A stretch of 64,000 bases of DNA from NCBI RefSeq assembly GCF_900119155.1, contig NZ_FPIR01000002.1:124001-188000 (forward strand), in the 5' to 3' direction. Every line of letters starts with the position of its first letter. The stretch's first letter is position 1. The translations under genes were made by a program, and so were the position numbers. Positions 56,947-61,971 of this stretch are shown here, in pieces. The notes under the pieces are model-generated. The model saw only the letters and a program-made list of their open reading frames with translations. It made no database searches and was not told where the DNA came from. The DNA is from Ruminococcus sp. YE71 (GTDB lineage: Bacteria > Bacillota > Clostridia > Oscillospirales > Ruminococcaceae).

Positions 56947-57015
56947 CAACAGACATGGCGGCGCTCGGCGCTGACATTCAGAAAAATAAACGAAGAAACC
57001 AAAGGAGTGTCGGAA

Positions 57016-58380
57016 ATGGAAAAAATGAAATTGTCGGAGATAGTTCAGGCAGTCGGGGGCAGCTTCGGCTATCCTGCGGATGTCGAGATAAGCTCTGTCT
57101 CTACCGACACAAGAACGATAGAGCCGAACTCGGTGTTCATCGCCATCAAGGGCGAGAACTTCGACGGACATGACTACGGCGCGAAGGCCTGCGAGCTGGG
57201 CGCGGAGGCGGTCATCGCAGAACGCCCGATAAAGGACGCAAAGTGCATCGTTGTGGATTCCACCGCAAGGGCGCTTTTGCAGCTTGCGAACTACTACAGG
57301 AAAAAGTTCGATATACCGCTCATAGGTATCACGGGCAGCGTCGGAAAGACCACCACAAAGGACATGATATCCCTCGTGGTCTCGAAGACATTCAAGACCG
57401 TCAAGACCGAGGGCAACCACAACAACGAGATAGGTATGCCGAAAACACTGTTCGGCATCGACAGCACGACGGGTGCGGCGGTCATCGAGATGGGAATGAA
57501 CCACTTCGGCGAGATGTCGAGACTGTCCATGTGCTGTGAGCCGACTATCGCGGTCATCACCAATATCGGTCACTCGCATATCGAGAATCTGGGTTCGCAG
57601 GAGGGCATCCTCAAGGCGAAGATGGAGATACTCGACGGCGCGGACTACATGGCTCCGCTGATACTCTCGATGGACGACAAGCTGCTCTCGCAGATAGAGC
57701 CGAGGCACGGCAGACAGCTCATGTTCTTCTCGGTGAAGAAAAAGACTGCGGATGTTTACGCTTCGGAGATAGTTCCCGATGAGTCTGGCATCTCGTTCAA
57801 GATAAACTACAAGGGCGGCAGTATCGCCGCAAGACTTAACGTGCTGGGCGAGCACAATATTAAGAACGCTCTCGCGGCGTTCTGCGTGGGTCAGACGCTG
57901 GGCATCGAGCCCGATCTGATGGCAGAAGCTATCGCGGAGTTCGAGCCGCAGGGCATCAGACAGAGCCTGCGCGAGGTCAGGGACATGACCTTCATCGTGG
58001 ACTGCTACAACGCCGCACCCGATTCGGTGAAGGCGGCGCTTTCGGCACTGGGACAGATAAGCGTTCCCGAGGGCGGCAGACGCGTGGCGGTGCTGTCGGA
58101 TATGCTGGAGCTTGGCAAGCACGCAAGGAGCCTGCACAGACTGACGGGCGAATACGTGGGCAGCTCGAAGGCAGATCTGCTCTACTGCTGCGGAAACGAT
58201 TCGAGATACTATGTTGACGGCGCGGTCAAAAAGGGCATGAGCGCCGACTGCTGCCATTTCTTCGAGAGCAAGCAGGACATGATAGACGCGCTGAAAGAGG
58301 AACTGCACGCAGGCGATGTGGTGCTGTTCAAGGGCAGCCGAGGCATGAAGCTCGAAGAAGCGGTAGATGCTCTTTCTTAA
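57016..58380 (+). CDS. murF: UDP-MurNAc-pentapeptide synthetase (D-Ala-D-Ala adding)
   Basis: A 454-residue ligase adding D-Ala-D-Ala. ATP loop GITGSVGKTTTKDMISL, NEIGMPKTLFGI and EMGMNHFGEMSRLS are typical. AAAGGAG precedes ATG 57016 by 8 nt, chosen over GTG 57007. The region 56947-57015 shows no separate gene. It overlaps the next gene by 14 nt. Confidence 0.95.
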   Translation: MEKMKLSEIVQAVGGSFGYPADVEISSVSTDTRTIEPNSVFIAIKGENFDGHDYGAKACELGAEAVIAERPIKDAKCIVVDSTARALLQLANYYRKKFDIPLIGITGSVGKTTTKDMISLVVSKTFKTVKTEGNHNNEIGMPKTLFGIDSTTGAAVIEMGMNHFGEMSRLSMCCEPTIAVITNIGHSHIENLGSQEGILKAKMEILDGADYMAPLILSMDDKLLSQIEPRHGRQLMFFSVKKKTADVYASEIVPDESGISFKINYKGGSIAARLNVLGEHNIKNALAAFCVGQTLGIEPDLMAEAIAEFEPQGIRQSLREVRDMTFIVDCYNAAPDSVKAALSALGQISVPEGGRRVAVLSDMLELGKHARSLHRLTGEYVGSSKADLLYCCGNDSRYYVDGAVKKGMSADCCHFFESKQDMIDALKEELHAGDVVLFKGSRGMKLEEAVDALS

Positions 58381-59380
58381 ACTGACGATAACGGCGGCGA
58401 TGTGCATCGTGCTGAGCTTTTTTCTCGGCGCGGCACTCATACCGCTGCTGAGGAGATACAATACGGGCAGGTATGAGCCGTATGTGGGCGACCGATTCAG
58501 GACCGACGGCAGTGAGCCTGCTTTCGGCGGTGCGGTGACGCTCATCGTGCTGGCTTTCGGCATATCGGTGGCGGCTTCTTACGTGACCGACAGGAAAAGA
58601 CTGCTCGTGTTCGCGCTGTTTTCGGCGCTCATAACTGCGGCGGGCATCGCGGACGACGTGATGACCGAGGTGCAGGGCAAGGCCTGCGGTGTGAAGACCG
58701 CGGTGAAGCTCGGGTACACCTACGCGGTGTGTCTCGGGACGTCGCTGACGGCGAAGTTTCTCGGGCTGACGGGTTCGGCGGTGCTGCTGCCCTTCGGACT
58801 GGGATTTTTCGAGATGGGCAGGGCTTACTGTCCCGTGACGGCGGTTTTCATGACGGGCGTTATCTACTCGTTCCGCATCATGAACAGGTTCGGGACGGAT
58901 GAAGAGACCTGTATCGGCGGTCTGACGCAGACGGTCGGGGCGGTCTCGATGCTCGGCGTGTCGCTGGTGGGCAGCATCACGAAGAACGAAGCGCTGACAG
59001 CTATCGGGCTCGTCGGGGCGGCGGCTCAGGCAGGGTATCTGCTGTGGGGGCTCTCGCCGTCGAAGCTCAGGAGCGGCTCTTCGGGAGGGTATCTTACGGG
59101 GGCGATGACGGCGTCGGTGATAACGCTCACCGACTTCTATCAGCTCGGGATGGTGCTGACGGCGGTATCGCCCGCGGCGGACGCTGTCGGGGCGGCGGTG
59201 AACTACCTTGTGTATGTGAGCCGAAAGAAGCTGCTGCTTCGCGCTTCCTCGCTGCACAGGCACATCTCGATGTACAAAGTAAATGACTACAAAGTGATAA
59301 TGATATTCTCTGCGGCGGCTCTTGCGGGGGCGGCTGCGGCTGCCGCGTTGGCGGCTTACGGGCAGGACAGATACTTCTGA
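58367..59380 (+). CDS. MraY homologue with substituted catalytic residues
   Basis: A 337-residue multi-pass protein at the mraY position, with about ten helices. It keeps the opening ALIPLLRRYNTGRYEPYVGD, PAFGGAV (for TPTMGG), and the DD pair in GIADDVMTEVQGK. It differs elsewhere: the NAVNLTDGLDGL block reads FRIMNRFGTDEETC, the FMGDTGSLALGG block reads LRSGSSGGYLTGA, so the Asp that binds magnesium is Ser, and the HHH block reads SLHRHIS. MraY makes lipid I; with these changes activity is doubtful. It could be a pseudoenzyme that scaffolds the others, or a divergent enzyme using other residues. A true MraY would then lie elsewhere. Confidence 0.8.
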   Translation: MLFLKLTITAAMCIVLSFFLGAALIPLLRRYNTGRYEPYVGDRFRTDGSEPAFGGAVTLIVLAFGISVAASYVTDRKRLLVFALFSALITAAGIADDVMTEVQGKACGVKTAVKLGYTYAVCLGTSLTAKFLGLTGSAVLLPFGLGFFEMGRAYCPVTAVFMTGVIYSFRIMNRFGTDEETCIGGLTQTVGAVSMLGVSLVGSITKNEALTAIGLVGAAAQAGYLLWGLSPSKLRSGSSGGYLTGAMTASVITLTDFYQLGMVLTAVSPAADAVGAAVNYLVYVSRKKLLLRASSLHRHISMYKVNDYKVIMIFSAAALAGAAAAAALAAYGQDRYF

Positions 59381-59411: not shown

Positions 59412-60674
59412 ATGGCGAACAGACCTACAATAGAAAAATCTTCGCCGCAGGCGGGCAGCAAGCGCAGCAAACTCAATCTGCGATTCATCCTCTCGGAGAT
59501 AGACCTGACTTTCTTCGGTCTGGTCGTACTGCTGACCGTTTTCGGACTGCTGATGATGTTCTCCGCGAGCTTCGCGGCTTCGATGCAGGAACACGGCGAC
59601 AGCTACTATATCATAAAGCGCCAGCTTCTGTGCGCGATAATCGGATTCGTGGCGATGTTCTTCGCATCGTACCTGGACTACAACTTCTTCTTCAACACGA
59701 AGATAGCGTATTTCTTCTTCGGGGTGTCGCTGGTGACGTGTATATACACGGCGCTGTGGGGCATAGAAGTTGCGGACGCAAAGCGATGGATAAAGATACC
59801 TAAGGTGGGCGTTACCTTTCAGCCGTCGGAGATGCTGAAAATAGCGTTCATCGTGATATTTGCGTACATCCTGTCGGTGAATTTCCAGAAATTCGAGAAG
59901 AAACCATACTATATTTATATACCGTTCTACATCACCTTCGGACTGGTGTTCATCGTTCTGCTGATGCAGAGACATATGTCGGCGGTAATGCTGTTCACCA
60001 TAATCGGCGTTGCGATGCTGTTCGCAAGCGGTATGTCGAGAAAGCGCTTCTGGCAGTTCATGATGGTGTCGGCGTTTCTCGGGCTGATAGCGCTGCTGGT
60101 GCTGTTCGTGGTGAAGGGCGGCGGCAAGTTCAGCTACATAATCACGAGATACAAGGCATGGAAGAACCCGATGGCTGATACCTCGGACACCACTCACCAG
60201 ACCTACGAGAGCCTGCTCGCTATCGGTTCGGGCGGATGGTTCGGACTGGGCTTCGGCGAGTCGAGACAGAAGTACCTGTACCTGCCCGAGTCGCAGAACG
60301 ACTTCATTTTCGCGATAATCTGCGAGGAGCTGGGATTCGCGGGCGGACTTGTGGTGGTACTGCTGTTCGTGCTGTTCATCCTCAAGGGCTTCCAGATCGC
60401 TACCAGCGCAAGAGACCGCTTCGGTATGCTGGTCGCAACGGGTATCACGATACAGATAGGTATCCAGGCACTCCTGAATATCATGGTAGCTACCAACGGC
60501 TTCCCGAACACGGGCGTGGCGCTGCCGTTTTTCAGCGCGGGCGGTACGGCGATAATCCTACAGATGTTCGAGATGGGCATAATGCTCTCGATCTCGCGCC
60601 AGACCATCAAGCGCGGCACAAAGAAGAAAAAAGCACAGGAAAAAGCCACGGCTCAAAAACCTGCCGAGGCGTGA
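59412..60674 (+). CDS. ftsW: lipid II flippase/glycosyltransferase FtsW (SEDS)
   Basis: A 420-residue SEDS protein with ten hydrophobic helices. DLTFFGLVVLLTVFGLLMMF, GVTFQPSEMLKIAFIVIFAY, and PNTGVALPFFSAGGTAIILQ near the end are family signatures. FtsW polymerises lipid II at the septum with its PBP partner. GAAAGGAC precedes ATG 59412; the frame extends upstream to 59322 without a ribosome site. The usual neighbour murD is absent before it. Confidence 0.95.
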   Translation: MANRPTIEKSSPQAGSKRSKLNLRFILSEIDLTFFGLVVLLTVFGLLMMFSASFAASMQEHGDSYYIIKRQLLCAIIGFVAMFFASYLDYNFFFNTKIAYFFFGVSLVTCIYTALWGIEVADAKRWIKIPKVGVTFQPSEMLKIAFIVIFAYILSVNFQKFEKKPYYIYIPFYITFGLVFIVLLMQRHMSAVMLFTIIGVAMLFASGMSRKRFWQFMMVSAFLGLIALLVLFVVKGGGKFSYIITRYKAWKNPMADTSDTTHQTYESLLAIGSGGWFGLGFGESRQKYLYLPESQNDFIFAIICEELGFAGGLVVVLLFVLFILKGFQIATSARDRFGMLVATGITIQIGIQALLNIMVATNGFPNTGVALPFFSAGGTAIILQMFEMGIMLSISRQTIKRGTKKKKAQEKATAQKPAEA

Positions 60675-60837: not shown

Positions 60838-61971
60838 ATGCTCAGAGTATTGCTCGCGGGAGGCGGAACGGCAGGACACGTCAACCCTGCTCTCGCCATC
60901 GCGGAGGTCATAAAGTCGCATCATCCCGACGCGGAGTTCGCGTTTGCGGGGAATCCCGAGAAGCTTGAAGCGAAGCTCGTTCCGCAGGCGGGGTACAAGT
61001 TCTACCCGATACAGGTGGAGGGCTTTCAGCGCAGGATAAGCGGCGAGAACATTAAGAGAAATCTGCACGCGGCGGCGTGTCTGCTGAAAACAGGTCCGCG
61101 CTCGAAACAGATAATCAGCGATTTCAAGCCCGATATCGTTATCGGTACGGGCGGTTATGTTGCAGGTCCTGTCGTAAGGCAGGCGGCGAAGATGGGCATC
61201 AAGACCGCGATACATGAGCAGAACGCATACCCCGGAGTGACAAACAAGCTGCTCTCGAAGTATGCGGACGTTTGTATGCTCACGGTGGAAGAGGCGAAGA
61301 AGTACCTCGACCCGAAGATAAAGTACACGGTGACGGGTCTCCCCGTAAGGTCGGGCTTCTCGAAGATAACCAAGGAAGCCGCACGGCGCGAGCTGGGATT
61401 CGACATGAATACCGTGTGCATACTCTCAACGGGCGGAAGCCTTGGCGCGGGTGCGATAAATTCCACCGTTCTCGACCTTATCTCCTGGTACAAGGAGAAG
61501 GGGATACAGGTAAATCACATCCACTCCTACGGCGGGAATGGCAGAGAGACAAACTTTGAACAGTGTCTTGCCGACAGGGGCATCGACCTCGAACGGGATG
61601 CGAGCCTTATCGTCAAGGAGTACATTAACAATATGCCCACCTGCATGGCGGCGGCAGACCTCGTCATCTCGCGCTGCGGTGCGAATGCGCTGACCGAGCT
61701 TGAGGCTATGGGCAGAGGTTCGATACTCGTGCCTTCGCCGATCGTTGCGGGCAACCACCAGTATCACAACGGCATGGTTCTGCAAAAGGCAGGAGCTGCC
61801 ATCGTTATCGAACAGAAGGACCTGACAAGCGAGTGGCTGATAAACACGGTGAAGTCGCTGCTCGATGACAGGGCAAAGCTCGCGTCGCTGTCGGAGAACG
61901 CGGCAAAGCTCTACATATCCGACACAAATGACAGGATTTACAAGGCTCTGGAGCCTATCATCAAAAGATAA
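60838..61971 (+). CDS. murG: UDP-GlcNAc:lipid I N-acetylglucosaminyltransferase
   Basis: A 377-residue enzyme that converts lipid I to lipid II at the inner membrane face. The G-loops GGGTAGHVNPALAIAEV and GTGGYVAGPVVRQAAKMG, the HEQNAYPGVTNKLLSK segment and SGGSLGAGAIN-like loop (STGGSLGAGAIN) are typical. ISRCGANALTELEAMGR is the UDP-GlcNAc site. GGAGGG precedes ATG 60838 by 9 nt. Ends 42 nt before the next gene. Confidence 0.96.
   Translation: MLRVLLAGGGTAGHVNPALAIAEVIKSHHPDAEFAFAGNPEKLEAKLVPQAGYKFYPIQVEGFQRRISGENIKRNLHAAACLLKTGPRSKQIISDFKPDIVIGTGGYVAGPVVRQAAKMGIKTAIHEQNAYPGVTNKLLSKYADVCMLTVEEAKKYLDPKIKYTVTGLPVRSGFSKITKEAARRELGFDMNTVCILSTGGSLGAGAINSTVLDLISWYKEKGIQVNHIHSYGGNGRETNFEQCLADRGIDLERDASLIVKEYINNMPTCMAAADLVISRCGANALTELEAMGRGSILVPSPIVAGNHQYHNGMVLQKAGAAIVIEQKDLTSEWLINTVKSLLDDRAKLASLSENAAKLYISDTNDRIYKALEPIIKR

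Follow-up and report, generated by a model that had tools for sequence, protein, structure and literature searches.

MraY (phospho-N-acetylmuramoyl-pentapeptide transferase) is considered an essential enzyme and is targeted by antibiotics. In the accessible sections of two reports, D117, D118 and D265 are described as critical for MraY activity, with Mg2+ coordinated by D265, and the uracil pocket is described as K70, G194, L195, D196 and F262 (PMC6606608, PMC5039524); residues are numbered here as in A. aeolicus MraY, after PMC6606608. Inactive catalytic mutants of B. subtilis MraY are reported to have still bound the nucleotide substrate (PMC5039524, in part), and MraY is reported to dimerise, with C55-P and lipid I bound at the dimer interface (PMC9046198, in part), so that loss of catalysis need not deprive an MraY of ligand binding or pairing.

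Two described systems, each taken from the accessible part of its report, are close to the locus presented here: MglA, an alternative lipid II synthase able to replace MurG (PMC8092295), and the dcw-encoded FtsW/FtsI of C. difficile, which are specialised for sporulation (PMC10693644). As with MglA, a distant homologue would take over the lipid-linked step of a dcw-encoded enzyme; however, MglA is a laboratory replacement of MurG, whereas the MraY step seems to have been replaced in whole genera, with the old gene conserved as a pseudoenzyme. As in C. difficile, a clostridial dcw gene appears to have stayed in place with a changed role; however, FtsW/FtsI of C. difficile remain synthases, whereas the dcw-encoded MraY form is without the catalytic residues. 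A divergent enzyme, whose score does not reach the threshold of the mraY annotation model, seems to have taken over the lipid I step. Searches of an open-access library by title and abstract (preprints and most subscription papers fall outside this scope) listed no account of an MraY pseudoenzyme or MraY replacement for these bacteria.

The MraY homologue of the dcw cluster

The window, the stretch of 64,000 nucleotides that was analysed, belongs to Ruminococcus sp. YE71, whose genome comprises 4.07 Mb in 43 contigs and is 99.96% complete. The gene order is murE, murF, a degenerate MraY (58367-59380; the dcw form), ftsW and murG. The five former active-site loops listed below were delimited by us through the residue numbers of the window protein (P0001); invariant columns are those of the window's genus (g1), and genome G284 was left out of all such counts.

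57007..58380, plus strand: presumably murF, named by gene order and sequence; its 3' end shares 14 bases with the start of the dcw form
58367..59380, plus strand: the dcw form (P0001), a degenerate MraY and putative pseudoenzyme of 337 aa; open, intact ORF
58454..58534, plus strand: former loop A, residues 30-56; KxGTPTMGG replaced by DGSEPxFGG; 16/27 columns invariant
58646..58702, plus strand: former loop B, residues 94-112; D96-D97 kept; 3/19 columns invariant
58868..58930, plus strand: former loop C, residues 168-188; DxxDG box replaced by NRFGTDEETCIGGL, 8 residues longer; 10/21 columns invariant
59042..59104, plus strand: former loop D, residues 226-246; MGDTGS replaced by SGSSGG, the Mg2+ Asp being S238; 12/21 columns invariant
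59216..59290, plus strand: former loop E, residues 284-308; PxHHH replaced by LHRH; 4/25 columns invariant
59412..60674, plus strand: ftsW, as we take it from gene order and sequence; likely ATG start
60838..61971, plus strand: murG, assumed on the same grounds; likely ATG start

The dcw form was compared with the order's canonical MraYs, 24 in number (25 loci over the cut-off, minus one with a reported stop in G028, a genome that is 55% complete), among which D117, D118, N190, D193, D196, F262, D265, H324 and H325 are invariant. D117 and D118 are retained in the window protein as D96 and D97; D265 is replaced by S238, F262 by Arg, and the NLTDGxDG box by the longer loop C stretch, with R170, N173 and G184 in the places of N190, D193 and D196. 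The HHH block reads H297-R298-H299, so that H325 is also replaced in the window. The ten full-length copies of the genus show the same pattern: D117, D118, H324 and H326 are retained in 10/10, whereas D265 is Ser, D193 is Asn, D196 is Gly, and F262 and N190 are each Arg or Lys, all in 10/10; H325 is retained in two. The loop C residues N173, R174, F175, G176 and D178 are invariant in 10/10. The sequence-only reading had described several of these changes (a Ser for the MGD Asp, loss of the TDGLDG block, HRH for HHH, DD kept) in a gene between murF and ftsW that overlaps murF and is not frameshifted. All of this stands; the stop codon lies 31 bases 5' of the likely ftsW ATG (59412).

P0001 scored 33.6 bits against the NCBIfam mraY model (TIGR00445), below its cut-off of 192, and 29.9 against Pfam Glycos_transf_4 (cut-off 27). 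A profile of the dcw form scored 194 in hhalign against MraY vs 47.6 against TagO-type genes of the order. The overall fold, which the sequence-only reading had also described as kept, is that of MraY in a predicted model built with the 10 genus sequences and matched by a structural aligner; the model is of low confidence at residues 42-49 (loop A) and 175-180 (loop C). A sequence search of solved structures with P0001 returned no MraY; photosystem subunits make up 17 of its 18 hits, which look like chance matches, and the fold claim therefore rests on the model.

All 13 available genomes of the genus were searched for the dcw form, which was full-length in 10, in two pieces in one (G006) and absent from two (G001 and G004). 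Because murF was likewise not found in the latter two at E<=1e-60, these absences were taken to be assembly gaps. The form recurs in 9 genus genomes besides the window's own at 47-77% identity, and the residue changes of P0001 are thus not a sequencing slip.

A second phosphotransferase gene, sec

A working MraY had been predicted to lie elsewhere in the genome, and a search of the genome recovered a second member of the Glycos_transf_4 superfamily, the only one besides the dcw form, with its catalytic residues present.

C31:252014-252958 (= L003:1345-2289), outside the window: sec (P0002), the second Glycos_transf_4 gene, about 314 aa; P0002 is the translation of sec plus one residue ahead of the Met

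In an alignment of 57 sec copies, which spans 17 genera and leaves out those of G276, G231, G284 and G500, D117, D118, N190, D193, D196, D265 and H324 are present in 57/57 and H326 in 56/57. Three other positions differ from MraY in every copy: that of K70 is Gly or Ala (in a loop that is hard to align), that of F262 is Leu, Met or Ile, and that of H325 is Asp. In the accessible part of PMC6606608, K70, F262 and H325 are described as contacting nucleoside inhibitors in MraY. Given this changed pocket, the sensitivity of sec to such inhibitors may differ from that of MraY, which bears on how these bacteria would respond to nucleoside MraY inhibitors.

Neither annotation model claims sec, which scored 79.5 bits against TIGR00445 (cut-off 192) and 34.2 against ECA_wecA (cut-off 326). 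TagO/WecA-type phosphotransferases belong to the same superfamily and their profile matches sec; however, sec carries TPxHDH and not the DRxHxHHR-type box of TagO-type genes. In hhalign the sec profile scored 146 against MraY vs 114 against TagO-type genes of the order, and all five of its PDB sequence hits are MraY. In a tree made by a quick method, with SH-aLRT support only and 34 sec rows, sec formed its own clade (SH-aLRT 100), joined to MraY and the TagO-type genes by long stems; the sister group of sec cannot be rooted in this tree. The gene adjoins pssA in some genera and is located elsewhere in others.

A phage origin of sec was considered and rejected. A scan of viral_contigs for relatives of sec yielded none (124 stretches matched a pattern). 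A phage collection gave 24 matching records; among the 20 listed, two were close, at 48.6% and 49.7% identity, and the other 18 matched at 30.1% or less. The two close records, MT839863.1 and MT836336.1, are short, unannotated human faecal contigs titled "Bacteriophage sp." that encode sec-type proteins at 49-50% identity; they probably represent DNA of bacteria that was carried into a viral preparation.

Distribution, decay and constraint of the dcw form

A draw of 297 genomes from the family was surveyed for canonical MraY (TIGR00445 at E<=1e-45) and for sec (above 190 bits), which were found in 238 and 53 genomes, respectively. By hand tally, canonical MraY occurs alone in 229 and sec alone in 44, whereas 9 genomes have both genes and 15 have neither of them; the two are thus nearly mutually exclusive across these genomes. 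The nine genomes with both, eight of which have a complete DDD triad, belong to genera g35, g58 and g85, and show that sec does not immediately displace MraY. The 15 genomes with neither include G013, G019, G066, G092, G097, G103 and G125; G125 and G103 were taken to be assembly gaps because murF was also not found in them (E<=1e-60). In the window's genus sec is present in 12/13 genomes, the exception being G004, which is 56% complete. PF00953 matched above its cut-off in 48/48 sec-bearing genomes outside the genus. Within genus g85, G187 and G253 (L269 and L270) carry canonical MraY without sec, and G096 and G305 carry both, which suggests that sec was gained or lost within this genus. In an order-wide draw, sec was found at E<=1e-22 in 8/295 genomes, one of them outside the family; this gene (G500, L248:1489-2457) comes from another family within the same order, and none of the neighbours of sec in the window's genome was recognised beside it.

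In eight sampled genomes of the allied genera g90 and g79, which are 96-99% complete, no superfamily match other than sec was better than E 0.02. The dcw clusters of all eight run in the order ftsL, pbp2, murE, murF, ftsW, murG, with mraY cleanly absent. Since these genomes keep the pathway genes and sec alone, sec should make lipid I there, barring an unrelated enzyme. The same absence means that the pseudoenzyme is dispensable in g90 and g79, a point that counts against the reading favoured below.

Among 50 aligned dcw copies, the DDD triad is complete in eight, all from g35, g58 and g85. The remaining copies of these three genera are that of G284, which is cut by a contig end, and that of G069, in which only the Mg2+ Asp is changed among the tabulated motifs. 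The G069 copy (L176:3578-4600, minus strand) is a canonical-looking MraY with MGN for MGD, in a genome with sec elsewhere, and is perhaps a recent loss of catalysis. A species tree of 78 genomes was built from murE, murF, ftsW and murG (murF in 73, murE in 67); on it the degenerate state requires at least 8 changes, a count that includes G069. Four genera, g1, g87, g81 and g129, have three features in common: loop A resembles DGSEP (in g129 it reads DDSSP or DGTSP), loop C is enlarged, and loop E has LHxH, with the second His in 18/20. In the other degenerate genera the dcw frames span 300-360 aa and hold few remnants of the motifs. Every dcw copy examined that is not cut by a contig end retains a full-length frame. 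In sec-bearing genomes the dcw copy thus may be intact, a pseudoenzyme, eroded or deleted, and the ancestral mraY is visible in stages: intact, with one residue lost (MGN, G069), as a pseudoenzyme that appears to keep its pocket, as an eroded frame, and absent.

Omega was estimated under a codon model, with the G284 dcw copy left out; for the genus, 10 genomes were used per gene (8 for mraW). The genus values were 0.132 for the dcw form, 0.088 for sec, 0.079 for murF, 0.105 for ftsW, 0.067 for murG, 0.077 for murE and 0.056 for mraW, and omega was 0.075-0.227 within the other degenerate-dcw genera having at least 3 sequences; all are rough, as most pairs are close to saturated at synonymous sites. 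The closest pair (G009 and G010) gave a dN/dS of 0.09-0.10. In a neutral simulation, stop-free copies numbered 14/2000 at 0.2 substitutions per site and 0/2000 at 0.5. The dcw form is under purifying selection across the window's genus. The retention of a pseudoenzyme in the cluster, anticipated by the sequence-only reading together with a call to look for its conservation in relatives, is borne out as far as conservation and selection can tell.

In the genus, 45/113 loop columns are invariant vs 30/224 elsewhere (OR 4.28, p 1.4e-7), and in g87, g81 and g129 together the counts are 20/113 vs 12/221 (OR 3.75, p 6e-4). The corresponding odds ratios were 4.33 for the dcw copies of g35, g58 and g85, 4.39 for sec of the genus, 6.47 for all sec and 10.2 for the 24 canonical MraYs. 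No loop excess was seen in g97, g45, g47 and g134 (OR 0.78, 0.90, 1.36 and 1.23, from 3-4 sequences per genus with weak loop alignments). Within g1, loops A, C and D carry most of the constraint, which is low in loops B and E. These data indicate that the pocket is still constrained in g1, with its residues altered, but not visibly so in the eroded genera.

Explanations for the dcw form and sec

P0001 is a probable pseudoenzyme, in that its catalytic residues are lost while its predicted fold and purifying selection are kept. The reading that we favour, with a probability of about 0.78, is that the dcw gene encodes an MraY pseudoenzyme, that lipid I synthesis has passed to sec, and that the pocket, though altered, is retained under constraint. 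Under this reading, sec, a distant phosphotransferase with the DD, DGxDG and MGD residues, would have taken over lipid I synthesis, and the dcw MraY, thereby able to lose catalysis, would have been eroded, lost or kept. It would have been kept in the window's genus and the three allied genera (g87, g81 and g129), with the cytoplasmic pocket constrained but altered. Very probably sec makes lipid I, and it is equally probable that P0001 does not.

The sequence-only reading had suggested a scaffold or a regulator; the way in which residues are conserved speaks more for a ligand pocket kept in P0001 than for a mere scaffold. P0001 would use that pocket to bind a ligand, either as a partner in lipid I synthesis or as its regulator, and might pair with sec. 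The odds of this role are somewhat below even; the ligand would be C55-P, lipid I or UDP-MurNAc-pentapeptide, and P0001 would perhaps form a hetero-oligomer with sec beside MurF, FtsW and MurG. It is a more speculative suggestion still, and one we regard as doubtful, that this Ruminococcus-like branch makes lipid I through a third phosphotransferase clade, neither MraY nor TagO/WecA and without Lys70, Phe262 and His325, with the displaced MraY serving as a dead sensor or subunit that binds a precursor in its old pocket and, at the dcw-encoded complex, tunes lipid I or passes it on. The role of a non-catalytic MraY, and whether lipid I synthesis involves more than one subunit, become testable here.

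The observation that fits least well comes from G092, a g81 genome that is 99% complete; its degenerate dcw form (L281:455-1489) has, by eye, Glu in place of both D265 and D117. A search of this genome for sec at E<=1e-10 found none, and murF is present; either there is an assembly gap, or Glu-bearing dcw forms may still work. Also counted against the favoured reading are the score of sec, far under the mraY cut-off, its long stem between MraY and the TagO-type genes, and the low confidence of the model in parts of loops A and C.

G092 is one of the observations that would fit a dcw protein that has remained an enzyme but with changed chemistry, making lipid I or another lipid-linked sugar with a metal site drawn from the loop C insert (D178, E179 and E180) or from D96-D97 with H297/H299. 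The complete fold of the predicted model, pocket loops conserved like those of enzymes, the invariant D178 and its neighbours N173 to G176, and a Glu at the D265 position in 6/10 copies of the allied genera agree with this. However, D265, D193, D196 and N190 are all replaced in 10/10 genus copies, changes in B. subtilis MraY that include D98, D99, N171, D174, D231 and H289 are reported to cause significant loss of activity (PMC5039524, in its accessible part), and an intact second enzyme is present in 12/13 genus genomes; we consider an altered enzyme unlikely.

A functionless relic awaiting loss is quite unlikely in the window's genus, and would suit the eroded genera better. The deeper erosion or absence of the gene in other genera is as expected of a relic, as is its faster evolution than that of its neighbours (mean identity in the genus of 0.53 vs 0.69-0.83); however, the omega of the dcw form across the genus, the full-length frames of all examined copies not cut by a contig end, and new motifs that are invariant over 47-77% identity all argue against decay. 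It is very unlikely that lipid I is still made by the dcw form, with sec being an enzyme of the TagO/WecA type that serves a different envelope polymer: sec is indeed distant from canonical MraY and the dcw form does occupy the ancestral locus, but sec stands alone with murE, murF, ftsW and murG in eight genomes, its profile and all its PDB hits are on the side of MraY, and the DRxHxHHR-type box is absent. Finally, the overlap of the start codon with murF might hint at a frame kept merely so that translation is coupled, or membrane targeting secured, between murF and ftsW, but this is scarcely credible, as it would not hold individual polar loop residues invariant, and the g90 and g79 genomes lack the dcw form altogether.
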